From assembly GCA_003222395.1 (NCBI GenBank), contig QHWB01000061.1, positions 1 to 63,850 on the forward strand: a stretch of DNA of 63,850 bases, written 5' to 3'. The position numbers and the translations under genes are program-made. The first letter of the stretch is position 1; each line of letters starts with the position of its first letter. The notes under the pieces are model-generated. The model searched no databases. It worked only from the letters and a program-made list of their open reading frames with translations, and had not been told where the DNA came from. Origin of the DNA: Acidobacteriota bacterium. GTDB taxonomy: Bacteria > Acidobacteriota > Vicinamibacteria > Vicinamibacterales > CAVVIG01. Shown in pieces: positions 18,317 to 57,899 of the stretch.

Positions 18317-18319
18317 GGG

Positions 18320-20536
18320 TTGTCCCGTCCCTTCCGCTACACGTTCATTCTGGTTCTGACGGCGCTCGGGGCCACGCTGGCTGCCGTCGGCGGATGGCGC
18401 TACGCGCGCGCGTCGGCGCCGGCGAGCGGACCGATCGTCCTCATCTCGATCGACACGCTGCGCGCCGATCATCTGCCGGCCTACGGCTACACGAAGGTGA
18501 AGACGCCCGCCATCGACGCGCTTGCCGCAGACGGCGTCGTGTTCGAGCGCGCCTACTCGCACGCGCCGCAGACGCTGCCGGCCCACGCCTCGCTGCTCTC
18601 GGGGCGCCTGCCGTTCGAGACCGGCGTGCGCGACAACATCGGCTTCGCCATCAAGCCTGGCGAACGGATGCTGCCGCAGATGCTCCGCGACCGCGGGTAC
18701 TCGACGGCCGCCGTCGTCTCGGCCTTCGTGCTGCGCAAGGAGACGGGAATCGGCCAGGGATTCGACTTCTTCGACGGCGAGATGCCGCAGGCGTCGCTCG
18801 ACACGAGCATCGGTCAGGTGCAGCGCGACGGCGGCGCGTCGGAAGCGATTGCCGAGCAGTGGCTCGCATCCGCCGGCACCACGCGCGCGTTTCTCTTCCT
18901 CCATCTCTACGAGCCGCACAAGCCGTACGCGCCGCCGGAACGTTTTGCGGAATACGCGCCCTACGACGGAGAGATCGCGTACGCCGACGAAATCGTCGGA
19001 CTCCTGATCAAGTACTTGAAGTCGCATCAGCTGTACGACCGGTCGACGATCGTCCTGCTGTCGGATCACGGAGAAGGGCTCGGCGACCACGGCGAGCAGG
19101 AGCACGGGCTGTTCGTGTACGACGAGGCTATCCACGTGCCGCTCGTCATCAAGCAGGAAAGCAACGCGGGCGCAGGCCGGCGCGTCGCCGACGTCGTTCA
19201 GCACATCGACATCGTGCCGACGATCCTCGATCTGGTGAAGGCGCCGTCGCCCAGCAACCTGCGCGGCCGGTCGCTGAAGCCGCTGCTTGACGGTAGCGGC
19301 CGCCTTGCCGAGCAGGCGGTGTACTCCGAGGCGATGTACGCGCGCTATCACTTCGGCTGGAGCGAGCTGACGGCGCTCACCGACGGCCGCTTCCGCTACA
19401 TCAAGGCGCCGCGCGAGGAGCTGTACGATCTGCAGCGCGATCCCCACGAGCACCAGAACATCGCCGACGAGCGGCCGCCCGCACGTCAGGCACTGCGCGG
19501 CGCCCTCGACGGTTTGATCGCCGGCCGGCCGATTCAGTCGCCGAGCGACGTGCCTGCGGACGCGCGCGAGCGGCTGCAGGCGCTCGGCTACGTCGGCGCG
19601 CAGACCGACGTGTCGTCCGCGCCCGGCGAGACGCTGCCCGATCCGAAGGACAAGCGTGACATCCTCGAGACGTATCGCGCGGCGGTAGATCGCGCGGGCG
19701 ATCGCAAGTGGCGCGACGCCATCGCGCTGCTGCAGCAGATCCTGCGCGACGATCCCGGAATGGCCGACGTCTGGAGCCAGCTCGCCGCCTTCGCGGTTCG
19801 GGTCGAGCGGTACGATCTCGCCACAGACGCCTACAAGCATTTCATCGAGCTGAAGCCGTCGGATCCGGGCGGGTATCTCGGCGCCGCGGCGACGCTGTTC
19901 AAGCAGCAGAAGCTGAAGGAGGCGCGCGAGCATGCCGACTTTGCCGCGCAGATGGCGGCCGAGCGCGACTCGCGGTCGCGCGTCATCGCGCACGAGCTGC
20001 TCGCGAAGATCGCGCTCGCTCGACACGATGCGGAAGACGCCCGCAGGGAAGCGCAGCTCGCGCACGAGGCCGATCCGAAGCTGCCGCTGCCGGCGCTCGT
20101 CGAAGCGCGCCTGCTGTACGACCAGGGCAAGTACGCCGACGCGCTGCGTCCGTTCGAGGAGGCGCTGGCCGATCAGCGAAAGGCGGGGAGCGCTCCGCTC
20201 GCCGATCTTCATTACCTCGCCGGCGACACATACGGCCGCCTGGAACGGTACGCGGACGCCGAAGCGCAGTTCGCCGCCGAGCTGCGCGATTTCCCGCAGA
20301 ACATCCGCGCGCGCGGGGGGCTCGCCATGCTGTACCAGGCGACCGGCCGTGCCGACGCCGCCGCGCGCGTGATCGACGACATGGTTCGGATCACCCCGAC
20401 GCCCGAGGCCTTTGCGCTCGCCGCGCGGCTGTGGACGATGTTCGGAAACCGCCAGCAGGCCGATGCCATCCGCGCGGAAGCGAGACGGGCGTTCGCCGAA
20501 CCGCCGCGGGGCGGCACGCGCGCCGCGAGACACTGA
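18320..20536 (+). CDS. Sulfatase-fold/TPR paralog B1 (Thr nucleophile)
   Basis: 738 residues from TTG 18320. An N-terminal membrane anchor (residues ~8-26) is followed by an alkaline-phosphatase-superfamily domain (~38-400) and TPRs (~440-730). Metal and active-site motifs are I-D-T-L-R-A-D (D45), Q-T-L-P-A-H with T85 at the nucleophile position, D-H-G-E-G-L-G-D-H-G-E (D249, H250) and E-H-G. There is no C/S-x-P-x-R, so formylglycine chemistry is not expected. Subgroup B marker: Y-H-F-G-W-S-E-L before the strand ending in E-L-Y-D-L. The joint to the TPRs has L-Q-A-L-G-Y (~422) and L-P-D-P-K. No heptamer repeat is present in the pre-active-site loop. Probably periplasmic. Confidence 0.87.
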   Translation: MSRPFRYTFILVLTALGATLAAVGGWRYARASAPASGPIVLISIDTLRADHLPAYGYTKVKTPAIDALAADGVVFERAYSHAPQTLPAHASLLSGRLPFETGVRDNIGFAIKPGERMLPQMLRDRGYSTAAVVSAFVLRKETGIGQGFDFFDGEMPQASLDTSIGQVQRDGGASEAIAEQWLASAGTTRAFLFLHLYEPHKPYAPPERFAEYAPYDGEIAYADEIVGLLIKYLKSHQLYDRSTIVLLSDHGEGLGDHGEQEHGLFVYDEAIHVPLVIKQESNAGAGRRVADVVQHIDIVPTILDLVKAPSPSNLRGRSLKPLLDGSGRLAEQAVYSEAMYARYHFGWSELTALTDGRFRYIKAPREELYDLQRDPHEHQNIADERPPARQALRGALDGLIAGRPIQSPSDVPADARERLQALGYVGAQTDVSSAPGETLPDPKDKRDILETYRAAVDRAGDRKWRDAIALLQQILRDDPGMADVWSQLAAFAVRVERYDLATDAYKHFIELKPSDPGGYLGAAATLFKQQKLKEAREHADFAAQMAAERDSRSRVIAHELLAKIALARHDAEDARREAQLAHEADPKLPLPALVEARLLYDQGKYADALRPFEEALADQRKAGSAPLADLHYLAGDTYGRLERYADAEAQFAAELRDFPQNIRARGGLAMLYQATGRADAAARVIDDMVRITPTPEAFALAARLWTMFGNRQQADAIRAEARRAFAEPPRGGTRAARH

Positions 20537-22733
20537 AGGCGGATCGCGGGCCGGGGCGGACACACGGGTCCGCCCCTACCTGCGCACTGTCCGTCGAAGT
20601 CTGTATGCCGCCGCCAGTCTGATAGTTTTATTCGGAATCCTCTTCCTGCTTCGCGGCCGCAGCGCGCAAGCGGATCTTCATCCGATACCCGGTCAGAACG
20701 TTCTCCTCATCACGATCGACACGCTGCGCGCCGACGCGCTGAGCGTGTACGGCGGACCCGCGTCGACGCCCGCCCTCGATCGGCTCGCCGACGAAGGCGT
20801 CCGATTCGACTTCGCGCACGCGCACGCGGTGCTGACGCTTCCGTCTCATGTCAGCATTCTGACCGGCGAGTACCCGTTTCAGCACGGCGTCCGCGAGAAC
20901 AGCGGGTACCGCGTCGCGCCGAACGTGCGTACGGCTGCGACGCTGTTCAAGGACGCGGGATACGACACCGCGGCGTTCGTCGGCGCATTTCCAGTCCATT
21001 CGCGCTACGGCCTGAACGCCGGCTTCGACGTCTACGACGATCGCTTCGGCGAAACCCGCGCGCCGACTGAATTCGTGATGCCGGAGCGGCCGGCTACCGA
21101 AGTCGTCCGGCTCGCTCGCGCGTGGATCTCATTGCGGGGTTCCAGGTCCCCGGCAACCAGCAATCAGCAACCAGTACGCCCATGGTTCATGTGGGTCCAC
21201 GTCTTCGATCCGCACGCGCCATACAGGCCGCCGCCGCCTTTCGACACTCAGTACGCGTCACGACCGTATTACGGCGAAGTGGCGGCGACCGACGCGGCGC
21301 TGGCGCCGCTTCTCGACGACGTCCGCGGCGCCAGCCGGCCGGCGCTCGTCATCGTGACCGGCGATCACGGCGAAGCGCTCGGCGACCACGGCGAGGAGTC
21401 GCACGGACTCTTCGCGTACGAGTCGACGCTGCGCATCCCGCTGATCATCGCGGAGCTTGCTTCCACATCCTCGAGTCGCGATACGCGTGCCGGAGAGCTC
21501 TCGCACGTCGCCGCGCGGCACGTCGATCTTCTGCCGACGATGCTCGAGGCTGCCGGCCAGATGGTGCCCTCGGATTTGCCCGGACGCTCGCTGCTGTCAG
21601 CCGGCGAGCGTCGATCGAATGCGCCGCGCACGTCGTACTTCGAGGCGATGGCTGGCATGCTGAATCGGGGCTGGGCGCCGCTGTCGGGCGTGATTGTCGA
21701 ACGTGGCAAGTACATCGATCTGCCGATCGCCGAACGCTACGATCTCGCGGCCGATCCGGACGAGAAGCGAAATCTGTCCGGCCAGTCTCCCGATCGCGAT
21801 CGCACGCTGGCGGCGGCGCTGCGCGAGTACCGTGCGCCGCTTCCGGGCCAGCGGCGCGCCGAAACGCCTGAAGCGCTGGCCGAGCTCCGCGCGCTGGGAT
21901 ACGTCAGCGGCAGCTCGGCGGCGAAGACGAAATACACCGAAGCGGACGATCCGAAGCGATTAATCGACCTCGACGCCGCGATTCATACTGCGGTGGAAGC
22001 GTTCGGCGCGCGGCGAATCGCCGATGCGGTGCAGATCTACGAGCGCGTCATCGCGCGGCGTCCCGACATGGCGATCGCGTATCGCCACCTCGCATTCGTC
22101 CAGTGGGAGCGAGGCGACGTTTCCGCCGCGCTGAAGACGCTGCAGCGCGCGGTCGCCGCCGGCGTGACCGAGACGAGCGTCGTGACGCAGCTCGGCGAGT
22201 ACCTGGCCGAGACGGGCGAGCCGGGCAAAGCGACCGAGATGCTCCAGCCGCTCGCGAAGGATCCGAACGCCGACGCCGATACGCTCAACGCGCTCGGCAT
22301 CGCATTGGCGCGCGGTGGACGCCGCGACGAGGCGCGTCGTGTCTTCGAGCGCGTCCTTGCCGTCAATCCGGACAGCAGCATCCCGCTCGAGAACCTCGGC
22401 GTGCTCGCGCTCGAGCGCGGCGACATCGCCGCGGCGCGCCGCCATCTCGAGCGCGCAGTGAACGTCGACCCGCGCTCGTCGCGGGCGCACGCAGATCTCG
22501 GCGTCGTCGCGCTGAAAAGCGGCGACCGCCAGGCGGCCGTTGCCGCGTGGCAGGAAGCCGTTCGCCTCGATCCCACCAATTACGATGCGCTGTACAACCT
22601 TGGAACAACGATCGCGCGCGGTGGAGACATGAACACGGCGCGGCCGTACCTCGAGCAGTTCCTGCGGACGGCGCCGCCGGCGTTTTACGCGAAGGATCTT
22701 CGGGAGATCGAAAACATCCTGCGACGCGATTAG
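20463..22733 (+). CDS. Sulfatase-fold/TPR paralog A2 (Thr nucleophile)
   Basis: About 756 residues if read from ATG 20463, which overlaps the previous gene. No ATG, GTG or TTG lies in frame between there and the membrane anchor (encoded from ~20600), so a CTG at 20580 or 20601 may be the true start. The catalytic domain shows I-D-T-L-R-A-D, L-T-L-P-S-H (T125 from this start) and T-G-D-H-G-E-A-L-G-D-H-G-E. Subgroup A marker: N-R-G-W-A-P-L-S-G-V. The linker has L-R-A-L-G-Y and A-D-D-P-K-R-L, then TPRs to the end. The loop before P-W-F-M-W is encoded by a heptamer repeat. Probably anchored in the membrane facing the periplasm. Substrate unknown. Confidence 0.84.
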   Translation: MPSARKRDGRSPNRRGAARAPRDTEGGSRAGADTRVRPYLRTVRRSLYAAASLIVLFGILFLLRGRSAQADLHPIPGQNVLLITIDTLRADALSVYGGPASTPALDRLADEGVRFDFAHAHAVLTLPSHVSILTGEYPFQHGVRENSGYRVAPNVRTAATLFKDAGYDTAAFVGAFPVHSRYGLNAGFDVYDDRFGETRAPTEFVMPERPATEVVRLARAWISLRGSRSPATSNQQPVRPWFMWVHVFDPHAPYRPPPPFDTQYASRPYYGEVAATDAALAPLLDDVRGASRPALVIVTGDHGEALGDHGEESHGLFAYESTLRIPLIIAELASTSSSRDTRAGELSHVAARHVDLLPTMLEAAGQMVPSDLPGRSLLSAGERRSNAPRTSYFEAMAGMLNRGWAPLSGVIVERGKYIDLPIAERYDLAADPDEKRNLSGQSPDRDRTLAAALREYRAPLPGQRRAETPEALAELRALGYVSGSSAAKTKYTEADDPKRLIDLDAAIHTAVEAFGARRIADAVQIYERVIARRPDMAIAYRHLAFVQWERGDVSAALKTLQRAVAAGVTETSVVTQLGEYLAETGEPGKATEMLQPLAKDPNADADTLNALGIALARGGRRDEARRVFERVLAVNPDSSIPLENLGVLALERGDIAAARRHLERAVNVDPRSSRAHADLGVVALKSGDRQAAVAAWQEAVRLDPTNYDALYNLGTTIARGGDMNTARPYLEQFLRTAPPAFYAKDLREIENILRRD
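20553..20579 (-). repeat. GTAG-headed palindrome (GGGGCGGAC/GTCCGCCCC)
   Basis: Read on the minus strand it is GTAG followed by a 9-bp perfect stem and a 6-nt loop. It lies in the ambiguous start region of the next gene, between B1 and A2. The GTAG head links it to the REP-like elements elsewhere in the window. Confidence 0.8.
21150..21177. repeat. Heptamer repeat in coding loop of A2
   Basis: Four units (CCGGCAA, CCAGCAA, TCAGCAA, CCAGTAC) code for the loop P-A-T-S-N-Q-Q-P just before P-W-F-M-W-V-H. Confidence 0.85.
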
Positions 22734-22773
22734 TGGCACGAAAAAATTTCGGTGCTAAGATTTTTCACGTCGC

Positions 22774-25179
22774 ATGAAAACGGTGCTGGTCCTGCTGGCT
22801 CTCGCCCAGAGCGCGCAGCCGACATTCAGAGCCGGCGTCGAGCTCGTCCGCCTGGACGTCCGCGTCCTCGACGAACAGGGACGGCCGATACGCGATCTCA
22901 CGCAGGACGAGGTCGAAGTCATCGAAGGTGGCGAACGGCGGCCGGTCGTGTTCTTTCAGCACATCGAAGAGCCGGCCGACTCGTACGCAGACGTCACGAG
23001 CCGCACCGTGGCGAGCGAGGTCTCGACGAACCAGGGCGCCGCGCGCGGACATTTGTACGTGCTCGTGTTCGATCAGCAGCATCTCTCGCCCGGCGGCGAG
23101 CAGCGTGCGCGGCAGGCCGCCGGGACGTTTCTGCGCACGCGCGTCCGCCGCGGCGATCGCGTCGCTCTTTACGCGCTGCCGGGGCCGGGGCCGCAGATCG
23201 GCTTCACCGCAGACGCCCGGCGCGTCGCGGCCGAATTGATCAAGGTGCGCGGTCAGGCCGAGCAGCAGACCGTCGGCTGGACCGGGACGATGACGCCACA
23301 GGAGGCCGTTCAGATCGTCCGCGGAGACGAACAGCTGCTGCAGCGCGTCGCCGATCGCATTCAGGGACTCGTCGGGCCGACCGATCTGCAGCGCCGCGCC
23401 GACCCCTCGCTCATCAACACGAGCGCCAGGGTCAATCCGATCAAGGAGGACGCGCAGCGGCTCGTCAATCTCGTCGAAGGCGACAGCCGCCGCATACTCG
23501 CGACGCTGTCGGACGTGCTGCGCCACATGCGCGTCATCGAAGGACGCAAGACAATCGTCCTCGTCTCGGAGGGTTTTTACGCCGACCGCCTCACGCGTGA
23601 AATCGAGAGCGTCGCAGCGGCAGCGGCCGAGTCGTACAGCGTGATTCACGCGTTCGACGTGAATCGCCGCGAGCTCGATATCTCCGCCGACCTGCCGGCG
23701 AACGCCGACCAGCCGAATGCGATCCACGACAAGCTGAATCCGCTCGGCATGCTGGCGACGGAAACCGGCGGCACGCTCGTGCTCGACGCCAGCCGCCACG
23801 CTGAGGAAGCGTTCGCCGCGCTCGCGAATCAATCGGAGGACTACTACCTCGTCGGATTTTCTCCCGGCGTCGAGGCGCTCAAGGACCGCGGCGCGTACCA
23901 TGCGGTCACCGTGCGCGTCAAACGACGCGGCGCACAGGTCAGCACGCGGACGGGATTCACGCTGACCGACGCGGCGGCGCACATGGACCGACACCAGGCG
24001 ATCGAGCGCGCGCTGTCGGCGCCGTTCGCTCAGCAGGGACTCCCGATTCAGTACACGAGCTACGTGCTTCGCGGAAGCGCGCCGGGGCTGCAGCGCGTCA
24101 TCGTCAGCCTCGCGGCGGAGCTGCCGCTCGCCGCGAGCGATCGCACGCAGCCTGCCGACGTCGTCTTCGTCGTGCGCTCGACCGTCGACGGTCACGTTGC
24201 CGCAAGCGGACAGGACACGCTGCCGCTGCCGCCGGAGCGGACGCAGGGCACGACCGGAACCGGCGCCTATCGCGTGCAGTTCGAGCTACCGGCCGGCGAC
24301 TACGTGATGCGCGCCGTCGTCCGCGAGCCTGGCGGGCTGGTCGGCAGCGCCGATCGCCGGTTCACGGTCCGCGCGCTCGACGGTCCGGCGCTCGTCAGCG
24401 GCGATCTGATTCTGAGCGGCATGCGCGGCGAGCTGCCCGTCCGGCCGACTGTGTACACCGGCGACGGTCTGAGCGGCGTCCTCGATCTGTACGCGCGCAC
24501 AACCGAACAGCTGCGCAATGCGCATGTCACGGTCGATCTCGTCCCGGTTGGTGAACCGGCGGCCATCGTTTCGGGCTCCTGCGAGCTGCAGGAAGTCCGA
24601 ACGGTGAGCGGCGGTCTCGCGCGCGAGGCCCGCATCGACCTGCCGCTCGGCGGCGTCGCCGCGGGCACGTACATCGCGCGCGCACGCGTGCTGGATGGAC
24701 GCGACACGGCGAGCGAAGCGGTGCGGGAAATCGAGGTTCGCCGGGGTCAGCGTCCGTCATCAGCCGAAGGCCATGACGTCGACGCACTGGATCCGCGCGA
24801 GGCGGCCCGAAGCGCCGTCGCGCGCCGCTTCGAGTCGAAATACGGGACGCGCGCGCTGGAACGATTGGGTGCGGCCGATTATCCAGCGGCCATCGCTGAA
24901 TTGAAGGGCGCCGTCGACAGCGACCCCAGCGACGGCGTGGCCGCGTTTCTGCTCGGATGGGCGTTCCACGGCGCGGGAGACGATCGCCAGGCAATCAGCG
25001 CATGGCGCCGCGCCGCGTTCGTCGATCCGACCCTCGTCCCCGCGCATCTTGCGCTCGCCGAGATCTACGTCCGGCTCTCGCAGCCGGCGCTCGCGATGCA
25101 GGCGCTGCGCGCGGGCCTCGCTGCGCTGCCGCAGTCGCCCGAGCTGCTCGATCGGCTCCATCAGCTGGAACGGAGATGA
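22774..25179 (+). CDS. VWFA-related acidobacterial-domain protein with C-terminal TPRs
   Basis: 801 residues with a short signal peptide (ends near A-L-A-Q-S-A-Q). Residues ~20-75 match the N-terminal strand pattern of the family (V-E-L-V-R-L-D-V-R-V-L-D, then L-T-Q-D-E-V-E-V). The VWA-like domain (~85-385) has F-D-Q-Q-H-L-S where a MIDAS D-x-S-x-S would be, so metal-dependent adhesion is doubtful. It includes G-R-K-T-I-V-L-V-S-E-G-F and Y-Y-L-V-G-F. Beta-rich modules follow, then TPR-like helices (~690-800). A TAAGAT -10-like box at 22757-22762 may add internal transcription. Its stop overlaps the start of paralog B3 (ATGA), tying the two together. Function unknown; probably an extracytoplasmic interaction protein. 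Confidence 0.86.
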   Translation: MKTVLVLLALAQSAQPTFRAGVELVRLDVRVLDEQGRPIRDLTQDEVEVIEGGERRPVVFFQHIEEPADSYADVTSRTVASEVSTNQGAARGHLYVLVFDQQHLSPGGEQRARQAAGTFLRTRVRRGDRVALYALPGPGPQIGFTADARRVAAELIKVRGQAEQQTVGWTGTMTPQEAVQIVRGDEQLLQRVADRIQGLVGPTDLQRRADPSLINTSARVNPIKEDAQRLVNLVEGDSRRILATLSDVLRHMRVIEGRKTIVLVSEGFYADRLTREIESVAAAAAESYSVIHAFDVNRRELDISADLPANADQPNAIHDKLNPLGMLATETGGTLVLDASRHAEEAFAALANQSEDYYLVGFSPGVEALKDRGAYHAVTVRVKRRGAQVSTRTGFTLTDAAAHMDRHQAIERALSAPFAQQGLPIQYTSYVLRGSAPGLQRVIVSLAAELPLAASDRTQPADVVFVVRSTVDGHVAASGQDTLPLPPERTQGTTGTGAYRVQFELPAGDYVMRAVVREPGGLVGSADRRFTVRALDGPALVSGDLILSGMRGELPVRPTVYTGDGLSGVLDLYARTTEQLRNAHVTVDLVPVGEPAAIVSGSCELQEVRTVSGGLAREARIDLPLGGVAAGTYIARARVLDGRDTASEAVREIEVRRGQRPSSAEGHDVDALDPREAARSAVARRFESKYGTRALERLGAADYPAAIAELKGAVDSDPSDGVAAFLLGWAFHGAGDDRQAISAWRRAAFVDPTLVPAHLALAEIYVRLSQPALAMQALRAGLAALPQSPELLDRLHQLERR

Positions 25180-27347: not shown

Positions 27348-27357
27348 GAGCAGACCC

Positions 27358-28095
27358 ATGGTGATCTTGGTCGTCGCCGCACTTCAGATCTCGCTTGCAT
27401 CGCCGCAGCCGATCGCGGAGGTCGACACCAGCAAACTGAAAGGCGAAGTCGCCAGGCTGGCCTGGTCGCCGGACGGCTCCGATCTCTACCTGCAGACAAT
27501 CGAGCGCGACAATGCCGGCGTCGTCAAATCGGCGAAGCACTACGTGATCTCGACGGCCGGCAAGACCATCAAAGGCCTCGACCAGGAGCCCGCGTGGGCG
27601 GCGAAGTACTGGTCGTGGAAATCGGCGCAGGCATCGCCGGCCGCCCCGGCCTTCAGGATCGACGTCAGGCAGCGCGAGGAAACGATCCGCGCCACCTCCA
27701 CGCCGACCGGCGGCGCGATGGCGAGGGGAGGCACGGCGAATCCGACCGATGGAACCTCGTTCGAGGAAGTGGCGAACGCGGCGAATCAGACGCAGAAGGC
27801 GATCATCTTCACGCTCCAGGTGCGCGACGAGAAGATCGGCGAATGGACGAATGAAGCCGTCATCCCCGGCGTGAACTTCGGCTGGGCGCCCGCTCCGTTG
27901 AGTCTGCTGGCGTTCGCGAGACGCGATGGCGGACCGCTCGTCGTGCTCGACGCCTCCGGCGGCAAACAGGAGCTCGCCGGAACGAAGGCGGCCGTGCTTC
28001 CCGCGTGGTCCGACGACGGGAAGCGCATCGCGTGGCTCGAGCGGAAGGACCGGAAGAAATACCAGCTGATGATCGCCGACATCCAGATGCAGTAG
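27358..28095 (+). CDS. PD40/TolB-like beta-propeller fragment protein
   Basis: 245 residues from ATG 27358, 10 bp after B3 and 3 bp before the next VWFA gene. A short hydrophobic N-terminus (M-V-I-L-V-V-A-A-L) acts as a signal. Two PD40-type strands are clear: R-L-A-W-S-P-D-G-S-D-L-Y-L and P-A-W-S-D-D-G-K-R-I-A-W-L. The middle is low in recognizable repeats. Too short for a full propeller, it is probably a small periplasmic accessory protein of the operon. Function not assigned. Confidence 0.72.
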   Translation: MVILVVAALQISLASPQPIAEVDTSKLKGEVARLAWSPDGSDLYLQTIERDNAGVVKSAKHYVISTAGKTIKGLDQEPAWAAKYWSWKSAQASPAAPAFRIDVRQREETIRATSTPTGGAMARGGTANPTDGTSFEEVANAANQTQKAIIFTLQVRDEKIGEWTNEAVIPGVNFGWAPAPLSLLAFARRDGGPLVVLDASGGKQELAGTKAAVLPAWSDDGKRIAWLERKDRKKYQLMIADIQMQ

Positions 28096-28098
28096 CGC

Positions 28099-30976: not shown

Positions 30977-31047
30977 CGCTCGCCTGAAAGGCTCGCGCTA
31001 CGGTGCCTGTGCCTTCGTCTTTGTAGCGCGAGGCTTTCAGCCGAGCG
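30977..31047. repeat. Inverted pair of REP-like palindromes in the GT39-TPR gene
   Basis: A minus copy at 30977-31001 and a plus copy at 31023-31047 have GTAG heads facing each other. They lie in the second reading frame (coding R-L-K-A-S-R-Y and V-A-R-A-F-Q-A-S), 35-110 bp from the frameshift. Confidence 0.9.
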
Positions 31048-42819: not shown

Positions 42820-42887
42820 GCATAGCTCCTTATGAGCGGGGAGTGTAAACCAATCACTGCAAGTTTTGGCTAAATTCTGGAATCGCG

Positions 42888-45023: not shown

Positions 45024-45070
45024 CCGCTTTCCGAAGCAGGCGATCAAAGTCGAAGGGAGCAGCGCCGCTC

Positions 45071-45168
45071 ATATTAACGCGAACGGGATAAGGCGATAAT
45101 CAACGGCGGTTTCTGTTTTGCAAATCGTCCACGCGTACGATCCAAGATTCCGAGGCGTTCCGTTGAGC
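45071..45168 (+). promoter_or_regulatory. Conserved promoter/leader block of A7
   Basis: ATATTAACGCGAACGG-GATAA at 45071-45091 and a second block (GCGTACGATCC then AAGATTCCGAG) at 45133-45154 precede TTG 45163. Both match the blocks before B4 (17 of 21 and 20 of 22 bases) at the same distances, although the two genes belong to different subgroups. Confidence 0.6.
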
Positions 45169-50180: not shown

Positions 50181-50289
50181 ATGGTCCTCCGGCAAACTGA
50201 ACAGGCAAAGTTTTCGGCGCAAATACTAGCAGCAGCGGCTGACTGTGGCCAGCGTCAAGCCGGCTGCGCCGCCACAAACAGCGGATTTC

Positions 50290-52608
50290 TTACGCGCCTC
50301 TTCGGCGTTTTTGAACTTCCTCGATCAACTGTTCGATGTTGGGATAGCGGGGTGACACCGATTTGGCGGCAGTGAAGTGCCGCAGCGCTTCGTCGTACCG
50401 GCCGGAACGTGCCGCAAGGACTCCAAGCTGGACGTGAGGACGGGCATCGGAAGGGTCGAGCCTGACGGCCGTATTCAGCTCGCGCGCGGCATCCTCCTGG
50501 CGACCGAGCGCCGCATAAAGCCGTCCGAGCGTCGTGTGGTCGGCTGCCACATCGTTAAAGGTCCGTAAGCTCTCGGCCCACTCCTCCTGGGCTTTAGCGA
50601 GAGCCGCGCCGACGGCGCCGTCCAGGCGCGAGATCCCGCGATCGAACAGCGCCTCGGCTGCGCTCACGCGGACCAGACGCGAGTCGTCGACTAGATGCGC
50701 TGCGATCACCGGCGTCGTGCGCTGGTCATGGACGAGCCCAAGCGCGCGCACCGCGGTGATGCGCACCATCGCCTCGGGATCGGCGCTCGCGCCGATGAGT
50801 GCATTGATGATCGCAGGGCTGAAGCCCTGTGCCACCGTCGATTTCGACTCCACCTGCGACTTCGAGATCAGCTGACCGGCAAATTCCGCGGCGCTCGCCC
50901 GGATCAACGCGCCGTGCGATCGATCGGACGCGAGCCGCGCGACATCGGCGACGACCGCCGTGTCGCCCGTTCCCGCGCGGTAGAGCACATCCGACATCGA
51001 CACGATCGCCTGTCGCCGATCGTGGCTGCCATACCACCGATCCATCAGCGACGCGGCCCACTCCGGCGATCGATCGTCATGGCACGTCGTGCATGCGTTC
51101 GGCACGCCGTATCGTGCGGTCATCTCAGGGTTCGGCGGCTGAAACGTGTGATCGAGCCGGCGCGTGAAGAGCCGCCAGTTCACATCGCTCATGTGACAGT
51201 TCACGCAGCGGCTCCCCTGCGAATCCGCAGTGTGATGCGTGTGCTCTGTCCACGCTCCCACGCCTCCTGCCCGTTCAGCGCCTCCTGCCTGTCCTGCCCC
51301 TCCTGCCCGTCCTGCCCCTCCCGCCTGTCCTGCCCCTCCCGCCTGCCCTGCCCCTCCCGCCTGTCCTGCCCCTCCCGCCCTTCCTGCCTCTCCGATCGTC
51401 TTGTGGCATTGAGTGCACAACGTATCGCTGACCTTCGTGTGACCGCCGCCCGGCGCCTCGACCGGCACTTTCAGCATGTGCGCGTTCTCGGGCCCGTGCA
51501 GCCGGTGGCAATTGGTGCAGGTGGCGTCGCCTTTCTGAAAACATCCCGTCAGCGTCAGCGCCTGCGGACGGTTGAAGCGGCTCGGGCGGCCGTCGGGCCA
51601 GAAATCGCCCTGCGGATCGTTGTCGGGAATCGGCTGGCTGATGAGAAACGGCAGCGCGAAGTCCTCGTACCGATCGCCCGCTTTGAAACCGAAGAACACG
51701 TTGTTCTTGTTGCCGTGGCAGTAGCCGCACATGTCGAAGGTCTGCCGCGCCGGCGCTTTCTTCGGTGAAAAGATCTTCAGCACCGCAGGTGAAGGATCGG
51801 TGGGAGCGGCCAACGGATTCTTGTCCCACTCGGTCGTGATGGCGACGTGCTGCGCGCCCGGACCATGACACGCTTCGCAGCCGATTCCCATTTCGGTCCA
51901 CGTCGACGCGTAGGTGTTCGTCGACGGATCGAAGTTCTTCACCAGGTTCGTCGCATGGCAGTTCACGCAGGTCACGTTCCAGATCTGCCGCAGGTCGTGG
52001 TCCGCATCGTCGGGGATCGGCGTGATCTCCTTCCAGTCGAGCCAGCGCTTCGTTTCGTTGTGCCAGAAGACCGGCAGGACGTAGATGCGGCCGTCGCGCA
52101 GCTTCGAGAGGTAGCCCTGGAAGCGGCGGGCGCCGAGCGTGTAGTTCACTTCGAACGATTCGGCCGGACGGCCGCCGCGGGCGACCGAGATGAAGTAGCG
52201 CTTGTCGCGCGACTCCATCGTGTACGTGCGGCCGTACGCCTGAAGACGCGTGCCCGGCCTGAAGTCGCCTTCGACGCGCGCCTCGGCGATCGGCTTCGTC
52301 ATCTGGATGTGCAGCGTCTTCCGCCACGAGTCGTACTCGCCGTCATGGCAGTGCGCGCAGGACTCGGAGCCGAGGTATGACTCGGATCGCAGGTAAGAGG
52401 TTGTTGCGGATTCTTGAGAAGATGAATGTACGTCGGCCACCGCGCCACCGCTGTGACGTTCTGTTCTAGATACGACCGAGTGCAACGGCGCGAGGGCGTC
52501 AGCGCGTGGGGGTGGGGCCCCACGCGAAGTAAAAAATGTTGATCCCTGCGGCTGTATCAGCACCGTCAGGTAAGCCGTCACACCGAATGCAGTGACAAGT
52601 CTGTACAT
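50290..52608 (-). CDS. Octaheme c-type cytochrome with HEAT-like and TPR C-terminus
   Basis: 772 residues. Eight C-x-x-C-H motifs are visible (C-A-H-C-H at 84, then C-V-N-C-H, C-E-A-C-H, C-G-Y-C-H, C-T-N-C-H, C-T-Q-C-H, C-V-N-C-H, C-T-T-C-H), so eight covalent haems are expected. Alpha-helical HEAT-like repeats (~560-690) and two or three TPRs (~700-765) follow. Twelve nonamer repeats encode a flexible G-Q-A-G-G-A tract between haems 6 and 7. Two further palindromes lie in the gene. Such multihaem/TPR proteins are common in Acidobacteria; the electron partner is unknown. The membrane anchor is at residues ~5-20. Divergent from the VWFA gene at 52664. Confidence 0.9.
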   Translation of the reverse strand: MYRLVTAFGVTAYLTVLIQPQGSTFFTSRGAPPPRADALAPLHSVVSRTERHSGGAVADVHSSSQESATTSYLRSESYLGSESCAHCHDGEYDSWRKTLHIQMTKPIAEARVEGDFRPGTRLQAYGRTYTMESRDKRYFISVARGGRPAESFEVNYTLGARRFQGYLSKLRDGRIYVLPVFWHNETKRWLDWKEITPIPDDADHDLRQIWNVTCVNCHATNLVKNFDPSTNTYASTWTEMGIGCEACHGPGAQHVAITTEWDKNPLAAPTDPSPAVLKIFSPKKAPARQTFDMCGYCHGNKNNVFFGFKAGDRYEDFALPFLISQPIPDNDPQGDFWPDGRPSRFNRPQALTLTGCFQKGDATCTNCHRLHGPENAHMLKVPVEAPGGGHTKVSDTLCTQCHKTIGEAGRAGGAGQAGGAGQAGGAGQAGGAGRAGGAGQAGGAERAGGVGAWTEHTHHTADSQGSRCVNCHMSDVNWRLFTRRLDHTFQPPNPEMTARYGVPNACTTCHDDRSPEWAASLMDRWYGSHDRRQAIVSMSDVLYRAGTGDTAVVADVARLASDRSHGALIRASAAEFAGQLISKSQVESKSTVAQGFSPAIINALIGASADPEAMVRITAVRALGLVHDQRTTPVIAAHLVDDSRLVRVSAAEALFDRGISRLDGAVGAALAKAQEEWAESLRTFNDVAADHTTLGRLYAALGRQEDAARELNTAVRLDPSDARPHVQLGVLAARSGRYDEALRHFTAAKSVSPRYPNIEQLIEEVQKRRRGA
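50812..50835 (-). repeat. GTGG-headed palindrome in the cytochrome gene
   Basis: On the minus strand GTGGCA is followed by CAGGGC-TTCA-GCCCTG. It is in frame and encodes T-V-A-Q-G-F-S-P-A within the HEAT-like part. The head and layout match the GTGG elements at 31555-31606. Confidence 0.8.
51283..51390 (-). repeat. Nonamer tandem repeat (12 units) in the cytochrome gene
   Basis: Twelve units of TCC[TC]GCC[CT][CGT] type on the plus strand, 108 bp, exactly 36 codons. On the coding strand they encode repeated G-G-A-G-Q/R-A. The same unit is tandemly repeated in the intergenic region at 57937-58008. Confidence 0.9.
52502..52526 (-). repeat. GC-rich palindrome in the N-terminal coding region of the cytochrome
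   Basis: Arms GCGTGGGG and CCCCACGC, the reverse orientation of the element at 25202-25227. It encodes residues ~28-36 (R-G-A-P-P-P-R-A). Confidence 0.8.
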
Positions 52609-52663: not shown

Positions 52664-53524
52664 ATGCGTTTTGCCGTGTTTCCAGCGATACGCGCGGTTG
52701 CGGTTCTCGCCGCGATTGCGCTTCCGTTCACCTCACAGCCGCAGACCGGCGCGAGCCGCCTCGTGCTCGCGAGCGCGACGGACCAGCGCGGCCGCGCCCT
52801 CGTCGACGTTGGCGCCGACGATTTCGTCGTCCAGGAGGGCGCCGCCACCCGCGAGGTCCTGTCAGTGCGGATCGCGGACTACCCGATCGTCGTTCTCCTC
52901 GACGCCGGCGCCGCCGCGGAGGACTTCTCGCTCATGCAGAAGGCCGCGGTTCATTTCATCGAACGGCTTGGCGCCGAACGGCCGGTCATCGCCGGCGTGT
53001 TCGGCGGGCCGCCGAAGCTCATCGCGACGTTCGACGACGATCGATCGACAGTGCTCGAGCGCGTGAACGCGCTGACGCCGGGGGCGAGCGAAGGGAGTCA
53101 GCTGCTCAGCGGCGTCGCGCTCGCGTCGCAGACGCTGCACGCGACCGGCTCGCTGTTTTCGGCCGTCGTGGCGCTGTCGGCCGCTCCGCTGTCGGACGCG
53201 CACGACGGCGAGAGCAGCCCGGACGATGCGATCGGCCGCATCGTCGACGCCGGCGCGATCGTTCATGTGATCGGGAATCAGAAGATGGCCGGGGGTCGCG
53301 TCATGCAGGCGCTGCGCGGCCTCGTCGATCAGACGCGCGGCGAGTACACGCCGATCTACGCGGCCGCGTCGTACCAGGCTGCGCTCGATCGCCTGGCCGA
53401 TCGACTGTCGAACGAGCTGCTGATCGAGTACCTCGTTCCGCCGGGCTCGAAGCCGAACGACGCCAAGGTCGGCATCCGCATCCCGGGCGCGCGTGTGCGC
53501 GGCCTTCGCGTCGCCCCGCGCTGA
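52664..53524 (+). CDS. Short VWFA-related protein
   Basis: 286 residues with a signal peptide (ends P-F-T-S-Q-P-Q). The family strand D-F-V-V-Q-E-G-A-A and a VWA-like fold (~70-260) are present, but the MIDAS position reads L-L-D-A-G-A-A, lacking the two serines, so metal binding is doubtful. It lacks the TPR tail of the two larger VWFA proteins. It stands 2 bp upstream of paralog A8, repeating the VWFA-to-sulfatase-fold order seen at 22774/25176, and begins the second operon (VWFA-A8-A9). Confidence 0.84.
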   Translation: MRFAVFPAIRAVAVLAAIALPFTSQPQTGASRLVLASATDQRGRALVDVGADDFVVQEGAATREVLSVRIADYPIVVLLDAGAAAEDFSLMQKAAVHFIERLGAERPVIAGVFGGPPKLIATFDDDRSTVLERVNALTPGASEGSQLLSGVALASQTLHATGSLFSAVVALSAAPLSDAHDGESSPDDAIGRIVDAGAIVHVIGNQKMAGGRVMQALRGLVDQTRGEYTPIYAAASYQAALDRLADRLSNELLIEYLVPPGSKPNDAKVGIRIPGARVRGLRVAPR

Positions 53525-53526
53525 GG

Positions 53527-55653
53527 ATGGGGAAGAAGTTCTTTCTCTCTGCGGTCGCTCTTGTGGCGCTCGCCGGCTGGCTGGTCTGGCGCCGCGCGGT
53601 GCAGCCGCCGATCCAGTCCGGCGCATGCGCCGGCTGCAACCTCCTGCTCGTCACCATCGACACGCTGCGCACCGATCGCGTCGGCGCGTTCGGCGGGCCC
53701 GCGAACCTCACGCCGACGCTGGATCGTCTCGCCGCCGGCGGGCTCGTGCTGACGCGCGCGTACGCGTCCGCGCCGCTCACGCTGCCGTCCCACACGTCGA
53801 TCCTCACCGCGGTGTCGCCGCCCGTTCACGGCGTGCGCACGAACGGACTGTTTCGTCTCGGACCGAAACTGCCGACGCTGGCGACGGTCCTGAAGAACGC
53901 CGGGTACCGGACCGGAGCGTTCGTAGGAGCGTTCGTGCTGGACGCGCGCTTCGGCCTCACGCGAGGCTTCGACGTCTACGACGACCGCCATGGCGAAAAG
54001 CACGCGGGCGATCCCGCCGAAGGGGCCGAGCGCCGCGCAGAGGACGTCATCAAACCCGCGCTCGCCTGGATCAATTCGTCCATCTCGCAGCCGCCCGCAA
54101 CCAGCAACCAGCAACCAGCCCCCAGCCCCTGGTTCACGTGGATCCACTTCTACGATCCCCACGAGCCGTATCGCGCGCCCGAACCGTTCGCCTCGCGGCA
54201 TCAGCCGTACGACGCGGAGGTCGCCTACACCGACGCGACAATCGGTACGCTGTTCGACGGTCTGCGGTCCGCCGGCCAGCTCGATCGCACGCTCGTCGTC
54301 GTCGCCTCCGATCACGGCGAGAGCCTCGGCGAGCATGGCGAACGGACGCACGGCGTCTTCGTGTACGACGTGACGATGCGCGTGCCGTGGATTATCGCCG
54401 GCCCGCACGTGCATCACGGCGTGAACGAGGCGCTCGTGCGGCTGATCGATCTCGCGCCGACGACGCTCGATCTGCTCGGCATCGACCCTCCCGCGGAATT
54501 CGAAGGACGTTCCGTGATCAACGGCGGCGAGCGGACGGCGTACGTCGAAGCGATGGACGCGAATCTCACGCGCAACTGGGCGCCGCTCAGCGGGATCGTC
54601 AACGGACACTCCAAGCTGATCGATCTTCCGATTCCGGAAATGTACGACCTCTCCGCCGATCCGCGCGAGATGACGAATGTGCATGCGCGCGACCCGGCAC
54701 GGGCGCGCGTGCTCGAGTCGCTGCTGCGCGATACGGCGACGGCGCAGGCCGCGCGCGCGTCGAGCTCCGAGCGGACAACGTTGAACGCCGACGCACGGCA
54801 GCGGCTGCAGGCGCTCGGGTACGTCGCCGCCAGCGCCGGCGCCGGTCCGCGCGTCTACACCGACGCCGACGATCCCAAGATGCTGATCGGTCCCGCCGAG
54901 GATCTCAATCGGGCGCTGATCGCCTTCAGAGCCGGATCGCGCGACGAAGCGATGTCCGCGGTTCGCTCCATCATTCAGGCGCATCCTGGATTCACGACAT
55001 CCTACGGCGTGCTGGCATCGATGCAGCGCGACACCGGCGATCTGAAGGGCGCGATCGCCCTGCTGGAAACGGTGGTGCGCCGGGACATCGCCGATCAGAG
55101 CACCATGGTCGTGCTCGCCGGGTATCTGCAGGAGGCCGGCGCTCTGCAGCCGGCCGCAGACCTCCTCGAAGCCGTCGTCGCCGCGCATCCTGATTACGCG
55201 GACGCGCTCAATTCGCTCGGCGTCGTGTACTCGCGGCTTGGTCGTCACGATCGCGCCCGTCGGTCGTTCCGGAAGGTGCTGGAGCTCGACCCGACTTCCG
55301 CGGCGGCGTACGAGAATCTGGGCGTCGACGCGATGGGCGCCGGAGATCTGCAGTCGGCCGCCGGCGACTTGTCGCGGGCGCTGGAGCTCGACCCGGCGCT
55401 GGCGCGCGCGCACAATGCGCTCGCCGCGGTCTACATGCGCCAGCACCGCGAAGACGACGCCGTCGCACACTGGCGAACCGCGCTGACGCTCGATCCGACG
55501 TTGTACGACGCGTTGTACAACATCGGGGTCTCGCTGTGGGACAGCGGCAGGCGCACCGACGCGCACCCGTATCTCGAGCGCTTCGTCCACGAAGCACCGC
55601 CGCAGCGCTACGCGGCTGACATCGCTCACGTACAGAAGCTGATCGCGCGATGA
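53527..55653 (+). CDS. Sulfatase-fold/TPR paralog A8 (Thr nucleophile)
   Basis: 708 residues; membrane anchor ~5-21. Motifs: I-D-T-L-R-T-D, L-T-L-P-S-H with T85, and S-D-H-G-E-S-L-G-E-H-G-E-R-T-H-G. The last is strikingly like the S-D-H-G-E-S-L-G-E region of phosphoethanolamine transferases. Subgroup A marker T-R-N-W-A-P-L-S-G-I-V, then P-E-M-Y-D-L. The linker has L-Q-A-L-G-Y and A-D-D-P-K-M-L, then about seven TPRs ending in A-P-P-Q-R-Y-A. A heptamer repeat encodes the loop before P-W-F-T-W-I-H. It overlaps A9 by ATGA. Confidence 0.88.
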   Translation: MGKKFFLSAVALVALAGWLVWRRAVQPPIQSGACAGCNLLLVTIDTLRTDRVGAFGGPANLTPTLDRLAAGGLVLTRAYASAPLTLPSHTSILTAVSPPVHGVRTNGLFRLGPKLPTLATVLKNAGYRTGAFVGAFVLDARFGLTRGFDVYDDRHGEKHAGDPAEGAERRAEDVIKPALAWINSSISQPPATSNQQPAPSPWFTWIHFYDPHEPYRAPEPFASRHQPYDAEVAYTDATIGTLFDGLRSAGQLDRTLVVVASDHGESLGEHGERTHGVFVYDVTMRVPWIIAGPHVHHGVNEALVRLIDLAPTTLDLLGIDPPAEFEGRSVINGGERTAYVEAMDANLTRNWAPLSGIVNGHSKLIDLPIPEMYDLSADPREMTNVHARDPARARVLESLLRDTATAQAARASSSERTTLNADARQRLQALGYVAASAGAGPRVYTDADDPKMLIGPAEDLNRALIAFRAGSRDEAMSAVRSIIQAHPGFTTSYGVLASMQRDTGDLKGAIALLETVVRRDIADQSTMVVLAGYLQEAGALQPAADLLEAVVAAHPDYADALNSLGVVYSRLGRHDRARRSFRKVLELDPTSAAAYENLGVDAMGAGDLQSAAGDLSRALELDPALARAHNALAAVYMRQHREDDAVAHWRTALTLDPTLYDALYNIGVSLWDSGRRTDAHPYLERFVHEAPPQRYAADIAHVQKLIAR
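54094..54128. repeat. Heptamer repeat in coding loop of A8
   Basis: Five units: CCCGCAA, CCAGCAA twice, CCAGCCC twice. They encode P-A-T-S-N-Q-Q-P-A-P-S-P before W-F-T-W. Confidence 0.9.
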
Positions 55654-57899
55654 GAGGGTCTGAGGCAAACTCGCCGCGAGGGCCAGAGGGAAACTTACCT
55701 CCGTGTCCTCCGTGGTGGAGAGCTCGCTCGTGGAGGCGTGGCTGCGCCGCAGCGCTCATCGTCACTCTGCCGATCGGATGCGACCGCGGAGACCGATCGC
55801 GGTCGGACGAACGGCTTCGATCGGGCGCGCTCGCGCGATCGAACGTGTTGCTCATCACCATCGATACGCTGCGCGCCGATCGCGTCGGCGCCTACGGAGG
55901 CGGCACGCTGACACCGACGCTCGACCGCCTCGCGGCCCGCGGTGTCCGTTTCACGCGCGCGCATGCCCACGTTCCGCTGACGTTGCCGGCTCATACCTCG
56001 ATCCTGACCGGACTCGTGCCCGCGACGCACGGCGTTCACAACAACGGCGCGTCGGGAGTGGCTGCGGACGTGCCGACGCTCGCGTCTATCCTGCGTGACG
56101 CGGGGTACCGCACCGGCGCATTCGTCGGCGCGTTCGTTCTCGACGCGCGCTTCGGTCTGAGCCGCGGCTTCGACGTCTACGACGACCGCGTCGGCAGCGA
56201 GACCGGTCCGGTCACGTTCGCCTTCGCCGAGCGAACGGCCGATCGCGTCGTTCAGCTCGCAGGCGATTGGATTCTCTCTGGGCGCGCTTCGACTTCTTCC
56301 AGTCCCCAGCAACCAGCCCCCAGCAATCAGCCCCCAGCAACCAGCAACCAGCAACGAACGACGCCCTGGTTCTGCTGGATCCATCTCTTCGATCCTCATG
56401 CGCCTTACCGCGCTCCAGAACAGCGTGCTGCGGATCCGTACGACAACGAGGTGGCGTTCGCCGACGCACAGCTCGGGCGCCTGATCGAGCGTCTACGTAC
56501 CGCAGGACTGCTCGAATCGACTCTCATCGTCGCGCTCGCGGATCATGGCGAATCGCTCGGCGACCACGGCGAATCGACGCATGGGCTGTTTGCCTACGAT
56601 TCGACGCTGCGCATCCCGCTGATCGTCGCCGGTCCGTCGATGCATCCGGCCGCGTCGGACGCGGAGGCGGCGCAGTCGGACGTGCTGCCGACCGTGCTCG
56701 ATCTGCTCGGTATCGCGATGCCTGCGCGTCTGGACGGCCGATCGCTCGTGCCGGCGATGCGTGGAGCGGCCGGCGGCGAAAGACTCGTGTACTTCGAGGC
56801 GCTCGACGCGTACCTCACGCGCAGCTGGGCGCCGCTCACCGGAGTTGTCGCCGACGGATGGAAGTACATCGACCTGCCGGAGCCGGAGTTGTACGACCTC
56901 GTCAACGATCCCGGTGAGCTGCACAACAGGATCGACCACGAGCGCCAGCGTGCGGAGGTGCTGCGAACGCGTCTGAGCGAGTGGCCGCCGGCGGCATCGG
57001 CGTTGGCCGCCGCGAGAGCTGTGCCGATCGATCCCGATGCCGCGGCCCGGCTTCGCGCGCTCGGGTACACGGCCGCTCAGGGGACGACATCTTCGCGAAA
57101 GCAGTACACGTCGGCAGACGATCCGAAGCGGCTGCTCGATCTCGATCGCCGCTACGAGCGCGCGCTGGCGCTGACGGGCGACCGCCGGTACGCGGAAGCG
57201 GCGGCGCTGCTGCAGCAGGTCATCGCCGAACGTCCGGACTTCACGGTGGCGTACCTGAATCTCGCATCGGTGTTCATCGCCGGCGGCGACCCGCGGCGCG
57301 CCATCACGCTGCTCGAGGACGCGGCGAAGAGAGGCGTCACGAATTCCGAGCTGCAGGGACGGCTTGGCGCCGCATATCTCGCAGCCGGCGATTCGAGGCG
57401 CGCGGCCGCGGTGCTCGAACCGATCGCTCACGCGAACACGCCCGGAGGTGTCGAGGCGGAGAATACGCTCGGCATCGTGTTCACCGGGCAGCGCCGTTTC
57501 GATCGCGCACGGCATCTGTTCGGTGACGTGCTCGCGCGGGCGCCGCGTGCGGCGACGACGTGGAGCAATCTGGGATTGCTGGAGCTCGCCGCTGGAAAGC
57601 CCGGCGATGCGGCGCGCGCGTTCGAGCGCGCGGTCGACGCCGATCCGCAGCTCGCGCAGGCCTGGCAGGGGCTCGGCGCCGCGCGTCTGCGCTCGAATCC
57701 TTCCGGCGCGATCGACGCCTGGCGCCGAGCGCTGGAGCTCGATCCGCGCAACTACGATCTGCTGTTCAATCTTGCCGCGACGCTGCACGACCAGCAGCGG
57801 ATCAGCGAGGCGCGGTCGTACATCGAACGCTTCGTCCGCGAAGCACCGCCGGAGCGTTATGCAAGGGATATTGCGACGCTGCGAGGCTGGATCAGATAG
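55650..57899 (+). CDS. Sulfatase-fold/TPR paralog A9 (Thr nucleophile), lipoprotein
   Basis: 749 residues from the ATG overlapping A8. Lipobox L-P-I-G-C (C44) after an unusually long, Pro/Trp/Arg-rich N-region, so a later start cannot be excluded. Motifs: I-D-T-L-R-A-D, L-T-L-P-A-H with T111, and A-D-H-G-E-S-L-G-D-H-G-E-S-T-H-G. Subgroup A marker T-R-S-W-A-P-L-T-G-V-V, then E-P-E-L-Y-D-L. The linker has L-R-A-L-G-Y and A-D-D-P-K-R-L, then about seven TPRs ending A-P-P-E-R-Y-A. It has the longest heptamer loop of the set. A8 and A9 share ending and linker, which suggests a recent tandem duplication. Confidence 0.88.
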   Translation: MRGSEANSPRGPEGNLPPCPPWWRARSWRRGCAAALIVTLPIGCDRGDRSRSDERLRSGALARSNVLLITIDTLRADRVGAYGGGTLTPTLDRLAARGVRFTRAHAHVPLTLPAHTSILTGLVPATHGVHNNGASGVAADVPTLASILRDAGYRTGAFVGAFVLDARFGLSRGFDVYDDRVGSETGPVTFAFAERTADRVVQLAGDWILSGRASTSSSPQQPAPSNQPPATSNQQRTTPWFCWIHLFDPHAPYRAPEQRAADPYDNEVAFADAQLGRLIERLRTAGLLESTLIVALADHGESLGDHGESTHGLFAYDSTLRIPLIVAGPSMHPAASDAEAAQSDVLPTVLDLLGIAMPARLDGRSLVPAMRGAAGGERLVYFEALDAYLTRSWAPLTGVVADGWKYIDLPEPELYDLVNDPGELHNRIDHERQRAEVLRTRLSEWPPAASALAAARAVPIDPDAAARLRALGYTAAQGTTSSRKQYTSADDPKRLLDLDRRYERALALTGDRRYAEAAALLQQVIAERPDFTVAYLNLASVFIAGGDPRRAITLLEDAAKRGVTNSELQGRLGAAYLAAGDSRRAAAVLEPIAHANTPGGVEAENTLGIVFTGQRRFDRARHLFGDVLARAPRAATTWSNLGLLELAAGKPGDAARAFERAVDADPQLAQAWQGLGAARLRSNPSGAIDAWRRALELDPRNYDLLFNLAATLHDQQRISEARSYIERFVREAPPERYARDIATLRGWIR
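56299..56354. repeat. Heptamer repeat in coding loop of A9 (8 units)
   Basis: Eight units of [CT]CAGCAA, CCAGCCC or CCAGTCC type, 56 bp. The encoded loop (P-A-P-S-N-Q-P-P-A-T-S-N-Q-Q) precedes P-W-F-C-W-I-H. Confidence 0.92.

Follow-up and report, generated by a model that had tools for sequence, protein, structure and literature searches.

Background

Why should one bacterial genome keep nine closely spaced genes for sulfatase-fold enzymes, each ending in TPRs, among genes for TonB-dependent receptors? The question is raised by a contig of 63,850 nucleotides from an Acidobacteriota bacterium (GenBank assembly GCA_003222395.1, contig QHWB01000061.1), called the window here in its whole length, which belongs to a genome of 7.74 Mb. 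An original prediction had read the stretch as one envelope system of nine such enzymes, five Oar-type receptors and three VWFA proteins. The cluster occupies positions 17270-63850 of the window. The sulfatase-fold enzymes with C-terminal TPRs are labeled AP-TPR, L- and G-numbers denote loci and genomes, and CarboxypepD_reg-type TonB-dependent receptors are called Oar-like.

Our tentative answer is that the region is a conserved, locally expanded envelope gene cluster of Acidobacteriota, in which a threonine-dependent phosphoesterase or phosphotransferase module would work with Oar transport. Its core begins with a CarboxypepD/TPR gene, behind which stand at least one AP-TPR gene and, in some genomes, VWFA-TPR, PD40 and VWFA-TPR genes; TonB-dependent Oar receptors usually adjoin the enzyme genes. 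The enzymes, each with an N-terminal signal or anchor that keeps it in the envelope, a sulfatase-like domain with a threonine nucleophile and a terminal TPR superhelix, would act on phosphate or phosphodiester groups of a substrate, by hydrolysis or by transfer. The neighboring Oar receptors would move that substrate across the outer membrane, and the TPR parts would hold the components together. The parts are of known kinds; the conserved envelope gene cluster is real and, as far as our searches go, uncharacterized as a whole, and a description of the AP-TPR/Oar/VWFA combination was not found in the literature searched, coverage of which was partial.

Results

Nineteen AP-TPR genes in one genome

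All nine predicted paralogs are present, with PF00884 matches of 124-164 bits (cut-off 25) and C-terminal TPR families. A profile of the family's own catalytic domains scored the nine window copies at 548-615 bits and ten other copies of the same genome at 346-522 bits, one of the ten being in two pieces; these lie on contigs C1, C8, C18 (three copies), C34 (two), C94 (two) and C118. The next sulfatase-domain gene reached 125 bits, leaving a clear gap below 346, and the AP-TPR enzymes are thus delimited as one family of 19. Because nine of the 19 copies fall within about 40 kb of 7.74 Mb, their clustering is not due to chance.

Searches of other genomes found the enzyme in 31 of 40 at E 1e-70 and, in a sample of 60 taken from the phylum, in 39 at E 1e-95, our own genome included in each count. 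Copy numbers from both searches are lower bounds, at most 46 and 31 candidates per genome respectively having been scored; the 19 copies here are the highest number among the matches listed, and other genomes have from 0 to at least 15. The closest named matches are from Acidobacteria group 6, other Acidobacteria and Vicinamibacterales assemblies; together with the 27 matches to the acidobacterial VWFA family TIGR03436 they point to Acidobacteriota, probably Vicinamibacterales, as the home of this genome. Of 135 N-termini examined with a simple pattern, 45 have a lipobox and 85 a hydrophobic segment of another kind. Two of the nine window enzymes are flagged by the lipobox pattern, and two more appear lipobox-like by eye.

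Active-site residues and fold

Among 174 non-redundant aligned sequences, 173 have a residue at the nucleophile position, and in 172 of them it is threonine; the single serine belongs to L137, a lower-scoring short protein. Four places further on, histidine replaces the arginine of the CxPxR motif, again in 172 of 173. The Asp, Asp-His set is kept in 173, 172 and 173 of the 174 rows respectively, two further histidines each in at least 172, and two others in 171 and 169. All nine window copies keep these AP-TPR catalytic residues. In an alignment with chain 6pt6_B of PsS1_NC, T85 of the first window enzyme (18320-20536) stands opposite the first serine of SSPSR, in an entry whose title says C84S; there the second aspartate of the DD pair gives way to threonine and a lysine to histidine. 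In an alignment with Escherichia coli AslA, the asparagine after the aspartate is a histidine in AP-TPR. Comparison by hhalign with E. coli LapC gave 98.1% probability and placed threonine opposite threonine, and the alignment with E. coli OpgB was weak (5.6%).

The structure of the eighth enzyme (53527-55653) was modeled by AlphaFold2 with a predicted local distance difference test score (pLDDT) of 94.1 and a predicted template modeling score (pTM) of 0.91, and comprises an N-terminal helix, a catalytic domain to about residue 432 and TPR helices to the end. The best 50 rows of a fold search with the catalytic part (VIA-align Z 32.7-39.4) are mostly S1 sulfatases, and the same search also matches LtaP (4uop, Z 33.0) and PbgA/YejM/LapC (6xlp, Z 32.7). 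An NCBIfam scan, which took in three of the nine window proteins, placed them far below the cut-offs of the sulfatase families (PRK13759, 157-174 of 481 bits; choline sulfatase, 134-147 of 433; Mn arylsulfatase, 79-94 of 850) and of the threonine-type families (phosphoethanolamine transferase domain, 35 of 500; YejM, 40 of 825; PafA, 27 of 650; LtaS, 24 of 970), with PhoY also far below its own.

Sulfatases acting on sulfated polymers through a formylglycine would agree with the fold matches and with the strong PF00884 scores, but this account is already contradicted by the sequence: the threonine nucleophile, the histidine for the CxPxR arginine, the threonine and histidine found against 6pt6_B, the histidine found against AslA and scores far under the sulfatase cut-offs leave it hardly credible. 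The residues argue strongly against formylglycine chemistry, and assignment of AP-TPR to the formylglycine sulfatases was rejected on the replacements (Thr, His, Thr, His) despite the S1 fold. The enzymes would probably be misnamed if called sulfatases; the alkaline-phosphatase-superfamily label of the original prediction agrees with the residues. Phosphate appears the likeliest chemistry, because the Asp, Thr and Asp-His, which we take to be ligands of a transition metal, follow the pattern of LtaS/EptA-type enzymes.

Recurrence of the gene order

The plus strand of positions 17270-30132 holds a compact set with gaps of 3 to 40 bases where the starts are clear. It opens with a secreted CarboxypepD_reg and TPR protein (17369-18316, longest open reading frame (ORF) from 17270; PF13620 7e-15 plus TPR), followed by AP-TPR enzyme 1 (18320-20536; PF00884 1.1e-43 plus TPR) and enzyme 2 (longest ORF 20412-22733, with the real start probably later, beyond 20536; PF00884 8.9e-36 plus TPR). 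Next come VWFA-TPR protein 1 (22774-25179), enzyme 3 (25176-27347, longest ORF from 24957; PF00884 1.3e-47 plus TPR), which has an ATG overlapping the preceding gene's stop codon (25176-25179), a PD40-like protein (longest ORF 27310-28095) and VWFA-TPR protein 2 (28099-30132). A second tight set on the same strand (52664-57899) consists of a small VWA-like gene (52664-53524), enzyme 8 (53527-55653; PF00884 1.6e-45 plus TPR) and enzyme 9 (55650-57899; PF00884 1.2e-43 plus TPR).

The original prediction had staked itself on conserved co-occurrence in related genomes, and a conserved neighborhood is what was found. Gene maps were drawn with profiles and with BLAST from the window proteins for 79 named loci and for loci of 27 relatives, the latter a chosen subset of the enzyme matches picked before their Oar status was known. 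Outside the window, an AP-TPR gene comes immediately after a CarboxypepD/TPR gene in 18 loci, namely in 14 of the 27 relatives and in L025, L030, L044 and L067; a second AP-TPR comes next in six of the 18 and a VWFA gene in three. In 12 of them the upstream genes are among those of the window at 10007-14718 (M23, CarboxypepD lipoprotein, CtaA, DUF420).

Longer orders recur in several relatives. Genome G016 (L104 and L105, on the other strand) repeats most of the window: CarboxypepD/TPR, two AP-TPR (across the L104/L105 border), VWFA, AP-TPR, PD40 and VWFA, and then PMT-like, Oar, VWA-like, octaheme cytochrome and another AP-TPR gene. It is without most of the enzyme and Oar genes of the 35-50 kb portion, and the last two partner genes are swapped. 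L115, L117 and L118 show CarboxypepD/TPR, two AP-TPR, VWFA, PD40 and VWFA, and in L027 and L028 genes of the Oar, PMT-like, AP-TPR, VWFA and CarboxypepD/TPR kinds occur together. Given these recurring orders, we therefore read the locus as old and inherited in place, with expansion in our genome. As a separate observation, L028 is labeled Acidimicrobiia and has a gene block almost identical to that of the Vicinamibacterales locus L027; it is probably a mislabeled or mis-binned contig.

On the tree of the enzymes, enzyme 1 clusters with the copy of few-copy relatives and enzyme 2 with the second genes of tandem pairs. We found 41 same-strand tandem AP-TPR pairs and analyzed 36, five having been dropped because the tree lacked one of the genes or because two pairs shared a gene. 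Only four of the 36 pairs are each other's nearest relatives, and first or second position tracks the tree (17 changes versus 25.5 by chance, p 0.0025); the pairs therefore seem mostly to be retained old paralogs, which would fit two-part complexes.

These results bear on a simpler account, in which one enzyme gene underwent ordinary tandem expansion among common gene families and the neighbors share no function. The window enzymes are indeed paralogs, and their number elsewhere varies from 0 to at least 15. The genome also holds at least 150 PF13620 matches (150 of 258 candidates scored) and 27 TIGR03436 matches, and because both families are so common the presence of Oar or VWFA genes alone means little. 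A gene order kept in other genera, tandem pairs that are mostly old and catalytic residues kept in all nine copies speak against this account, which we consider unlikely.

Oar receptors beside AP-TPR genes

To the right of the first set lie the Oar genes, all on the opposite strand. Receptor 1 (32231-35131; PF25183, PF13620, PF07715) is divergent from enzyme 4 (35271-37460, plus strand; PF00884 9.7e-39 plus TPR). Enzyme 5 (37596-39791, minus strand; 4e-43 plus TPR) precedes receptor 2 (39901-43089; PF25183, PF13620, PF07715), and the two enzymes with a lipobox pattern, enzyme 6 (42888-45047, minus strand; 7.8e-44 plus TPR) and enzyme 7 (45118-47259, plus strand; 5.8e-48 plus TPR), are followed by receptor 3 (47256-50222; PF25183, PF13620). 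Receptor 4 (58018-60948; PF25183, PF13620) and receptor 5 (61022-63848; PF13620, PF25183) lie beyond enzyme 9. PF13620 and PF25183 occur in all five, and the PF07715 plug was reported in two. The five predicted receptors thus exist, although the fourth and fifth lie outside 18320-57899 and the contig end truncates the fifth, which is spread over two frames (tblastn frames -3 and -1).

An Oar profile was run over the sequence around the ten AP-TPR genes beyond the window, eight other PF00884 genes and 32 places picked at random within 6.74 of the 7.74 Mb. Every one of the ten AP-TPR genes, at six of six places, has an Oar gene within 4 kb, versus none of the eight other PF00884 genes and six of the 32 random places (p 3e-4 for places against random places, p 2e-5 for AP-TPR against other PF00884 genes). 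At 3.3 kb the counts are nine of ten genes, five of six places, none of eight and five of 32. No Oar gene appeared in the 14-kb stretches around the eight control genes, one of which was cut at 10 kb by the contig end; for control L251 the sequence on one side extends no more than about 2.7 kb. In the window itself, six of nine enzymes have an Oar gene no more than 4 kb away, and in other Acidobacteriota this holds for 19 of the 22 loci whose flanks reach 4 kb or more in each direction. The link is strong in Acidobacteriota and does not hold throughout the range of the enzyme.

Several findings weigh against a single enzyme-receptor system. The 4-kb limit was chosen after the distances had been seen. 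Enzymes 1, 2 and 3, which belong to the core set (18320, 20412 and 25176), have their nearest Oar gene at a distance of 5-12 kb. Among relatives with full flanks, nine of 13 loci have an Oar gene within 4 kb and four do not, and none of four Planctomycetota AP-TPR loci has one nearby; the count for the remaining six named loci is two. The 14 linked Oar proteins are scattered on a tree of 132, with 13 changes versus 13.5 expected, and the idea of a dedicated Oar clade for AP-TPR was rejected on this scatter. Mean pairwise distance indicates a weak tendency at most (p 0.057; 0.028 for the nine beyond the window), with p 0.09 (all 14) and 0.32 (the nine) for the distance to the nearest relative. 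Among the Oar genes listed, only five of 23 VWFA genes have one within 5 kb; that incomplete list is made up of 133 of the 150 matches, 17 with short frames or partial domains having been dropped by hand, and one added window receptor.

The TPR tails belong to the same side of the balance. Their mean identity to the reference is 23%, versus 40% for the catalytic part, and conservation reaches at least 60% in 31 of 256 tail columns, versus 145 of 397 catalytic columns. The conserved tail columns are mostly Gly, Ala, Leu and Pro of the TPR pattern, together with an Asp-Pro-Lys junction, and a conserved surface, looked for in the tail alignment, was not visible. The original prediction had the tails docking the enzymes to each other or to the receptors; columns that mostly fit the TPR fold give no backing to one shared docking surface, and partner-specific surfaces are possible. 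An analogy with LapB/YejM was set aside, as the model helices include no membrane segment between enzyme and TPR; the TPR part of E. coli LapB is cytoplasmic.

The neighbors of Oar genes that are not linked to AP-TPR were also scanned, taking 103 of 149 (within 600 bp, 200-1300 aa). The commonest Pfam family among those listed, 25 of 130, was TPR (nine), then FG-GAP, MacB, GFO_IDH, FtsX and UnbV (three each), and no single dominant enzyme partner was seen among these 103 direct neighbors for the families listed.

An alternative is that the AP-TPR enzymes modify the envelope or scavenge phosphate in a general way, independently of Oar, and that Oar genes are nearby because both kinds of gene sit in envelope-gene islands of Oar-rich genomes. 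Such independence agrees with the Planctomycetota and some relatives, where the enzyme has no Oar nearby, with the lack of a linked clade among at least 132 Oar proteins of the genome, and with the CarboxypepD/TPR core set, which adjoins heme A synthesis genes and in the window keeps its distance of 5-12 kb from Oar. It is harder to reconcile with ten of ten copies beyond the window near Oar, versus none of eight other sulfatase-domain genes and six of 32 random places, and with the 19 of 22 Acidobacteriota loci. We regard it as quite possible, if doubtful. The proposal of one system stands in part: it is favored by the conserved neighborhood, by the close packing of the genes and by AP-TPR/Oar proximity that exceeds chance in this genome and is frequent in other Acidobacteriota, and not by the scattered linked Oar proteins, the VWFA genes mostly far from a listed Oar and the Planctomycetota enzyme without Oar.

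Partner and neighboring genes

Three VWFA proteins had been predicted. Against the TIGR03436 cut-off of 81.25 bits, the proteins at 22774 (152 bits) and 28099 (174 bits) pass, each with TPR, but the third, at 52664, is weak (18.5 bits; PF13519 23.5 bits, cut-off 27). A model of the first (22774-25179) was of middling confidence (pLDDT 70, pTM 0.43) and places beta domains between the VWFA part and the TPR. In both strong proteins (22774-25179 and 28099-30132) the VWA motif resembling a metal ion-dependent adhesion site looks degenerate by eye (Asp-x-x-His); we take the regular metal-site motif to be Asp-x-Ser-x-Ser. The PD40 assignment at 27310-28095 exceeds its threshold (PF07676 24.4 bits, cut-off 20.9) but is weak and gives no match at E 1e-5; homologs occupy the same place in L104, L115, L117 and L118.

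The predicted GT39-TPR protein corresponds to a PMT_2 (GT39-like) and TPR membrane protein at 30165-32151 on the minus strand. PF13231 (5e-8) and TPR are both present but in different, overlapping ORFs (30967-32151 and 30165-31259), and the gene is apparently split, by either a frameshift or an assembly error. A distant homolog in L027 reads through in a single frame of 673 aa and shows 27% identity across the PMT part. PMT-like homologs lie near enzymes in L104, L027 and L028 (BLAST to the window gene) and L060 (PF13231); those of L119 and L120 are PMT-like by eye only, Pfam giving TPR alone. The octaheme c-type cytochrome with TPR is as predicted (50290-52608, minus strand; cytochrome, HEAT and TPR families; eight CxxCH), and its homolog in L104 is 68% identical.

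The cluster could instead serve the export or maturation of secreted proteins, with Oar as the secretion channel and the enzymes, PMT-like and VWFA proteins modifying the cargo. The recurrence of PMT-like and TPR genes near the enzymes fits, as does a precedent in Myxococcus xanthus, where Oar is reported to be needed for secretion of PopC (PMC6434023). No cargo gene was identified, and we judge this very unlikely as an explanation of the locus. Export is possible as well as import, since the precedent concerns secretion.

Further genes surround the cluster. A beta-lactamase-family serine hydrolase (PF00144) fused to a NamZ exo-muramidase (PF07075, PF20732) is encoded at 14889-17354 on the minus strand, with homologs beside the cluster in L025, L105, L115 and L116; in a general scan of 30 window ORFs no glycoside-hydrolase family was seen except this NamZ, outside the cluster. 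A lipoprotein-like protein with CarboxypepD_reg lies at 11540-12346 (plus strand); its relative in L131 contains, by eye, a C-x-x-H-x-x-M-like stretch that presumably resembles a cupredoxin site. At 8294-9953, some 20 bases separate the end of a phage-type integrase ORF from a tRNA-Glu gene, an arrangement like that at the border of an integrated element. A 1260-aa protein with RCC1 repeats and CHB_HEX_C domains (2-3781, minus strand) is open at the contig end. Elsewhere in the genome, the AP-TPR/Oar pair of L127:3472-16432 is flanked, by eye, by a GH3-like gene, a long TPR protein and an FG-GAP/UnbV-like protein; FG-GAP/UnbV is also found in the cluster of L055.

Discussion

The reading we tentatively prefer, a threonine-dependent phosphoesterase or phosphotransferase module working with Oar transport, would have consequences beyond this locus. 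Our genome has well over a hundred Oar receptors, and the adjoining enzyme family offers a handle on the role of some of them. If the chemistry is that of phospho-esters, family members annotated as sulfatases would be misnamed, which matters for estimates of sulfur and phosphorus cycling.

The AP-TPR enzymes resemble S1 sulfatases (PF00884; choline sulfatase, PsS1_NC, AslA) in fold, motif layout and first metal aspartate, but differ in having Thr for Cys/Ser, His for the CxPxR Arg, Thr for the second Asp and His for Lys, as well as a C-terminal TPR superhelix. With the threonine-type members of the alkaline-phosphatase superfamily (LtaP, YejM/PbgA/LapC, EptA-type, PafA) they share the Thr and the Asp, Asp-His residues; the C-terminal TPR and scores far below the named-family cut-offs set them apart. 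The VWFA proteins at 22774 and 28099 resemble the acidobacterial TIGR03436 family in score and differ by their C-terminal TPR. The likeness of the window receptors to M. xanthus Oar lies in the CarboxypepD_reg-type name, not in a sequence comparison.

The closest parallel in layout is with SusC/SusD loci, where a TonB-dependent receptor likewise stands beside TPR envelope proteins; here, in contrast, the catalytic domain is fused to the TPR. By membership the cluster is not a SusCD locus, because PF07980, the only SusD-type family searched, has no match in our genome; among 14 control genomes the same check gave a match in Bacteroides ihuae. As a speculative and quite unlikely extension, the TPR-tailed, threonine-type enzymes could be partner protein and catalyst of Oar transporters at once, the TPR tail replacing the SusD scaffold and the old, non-identical paralog pairs forming the working complex. 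We keep this reading, at low probability, because a SusD-family structure paper (PMC2954216) describes TPRs, for which its authors suggest, as a speculation, contact with SusC. If true, it would make the cluster an Acidobacteriota counterpart of SusCD, with partner and enzyme in one polypeptide.

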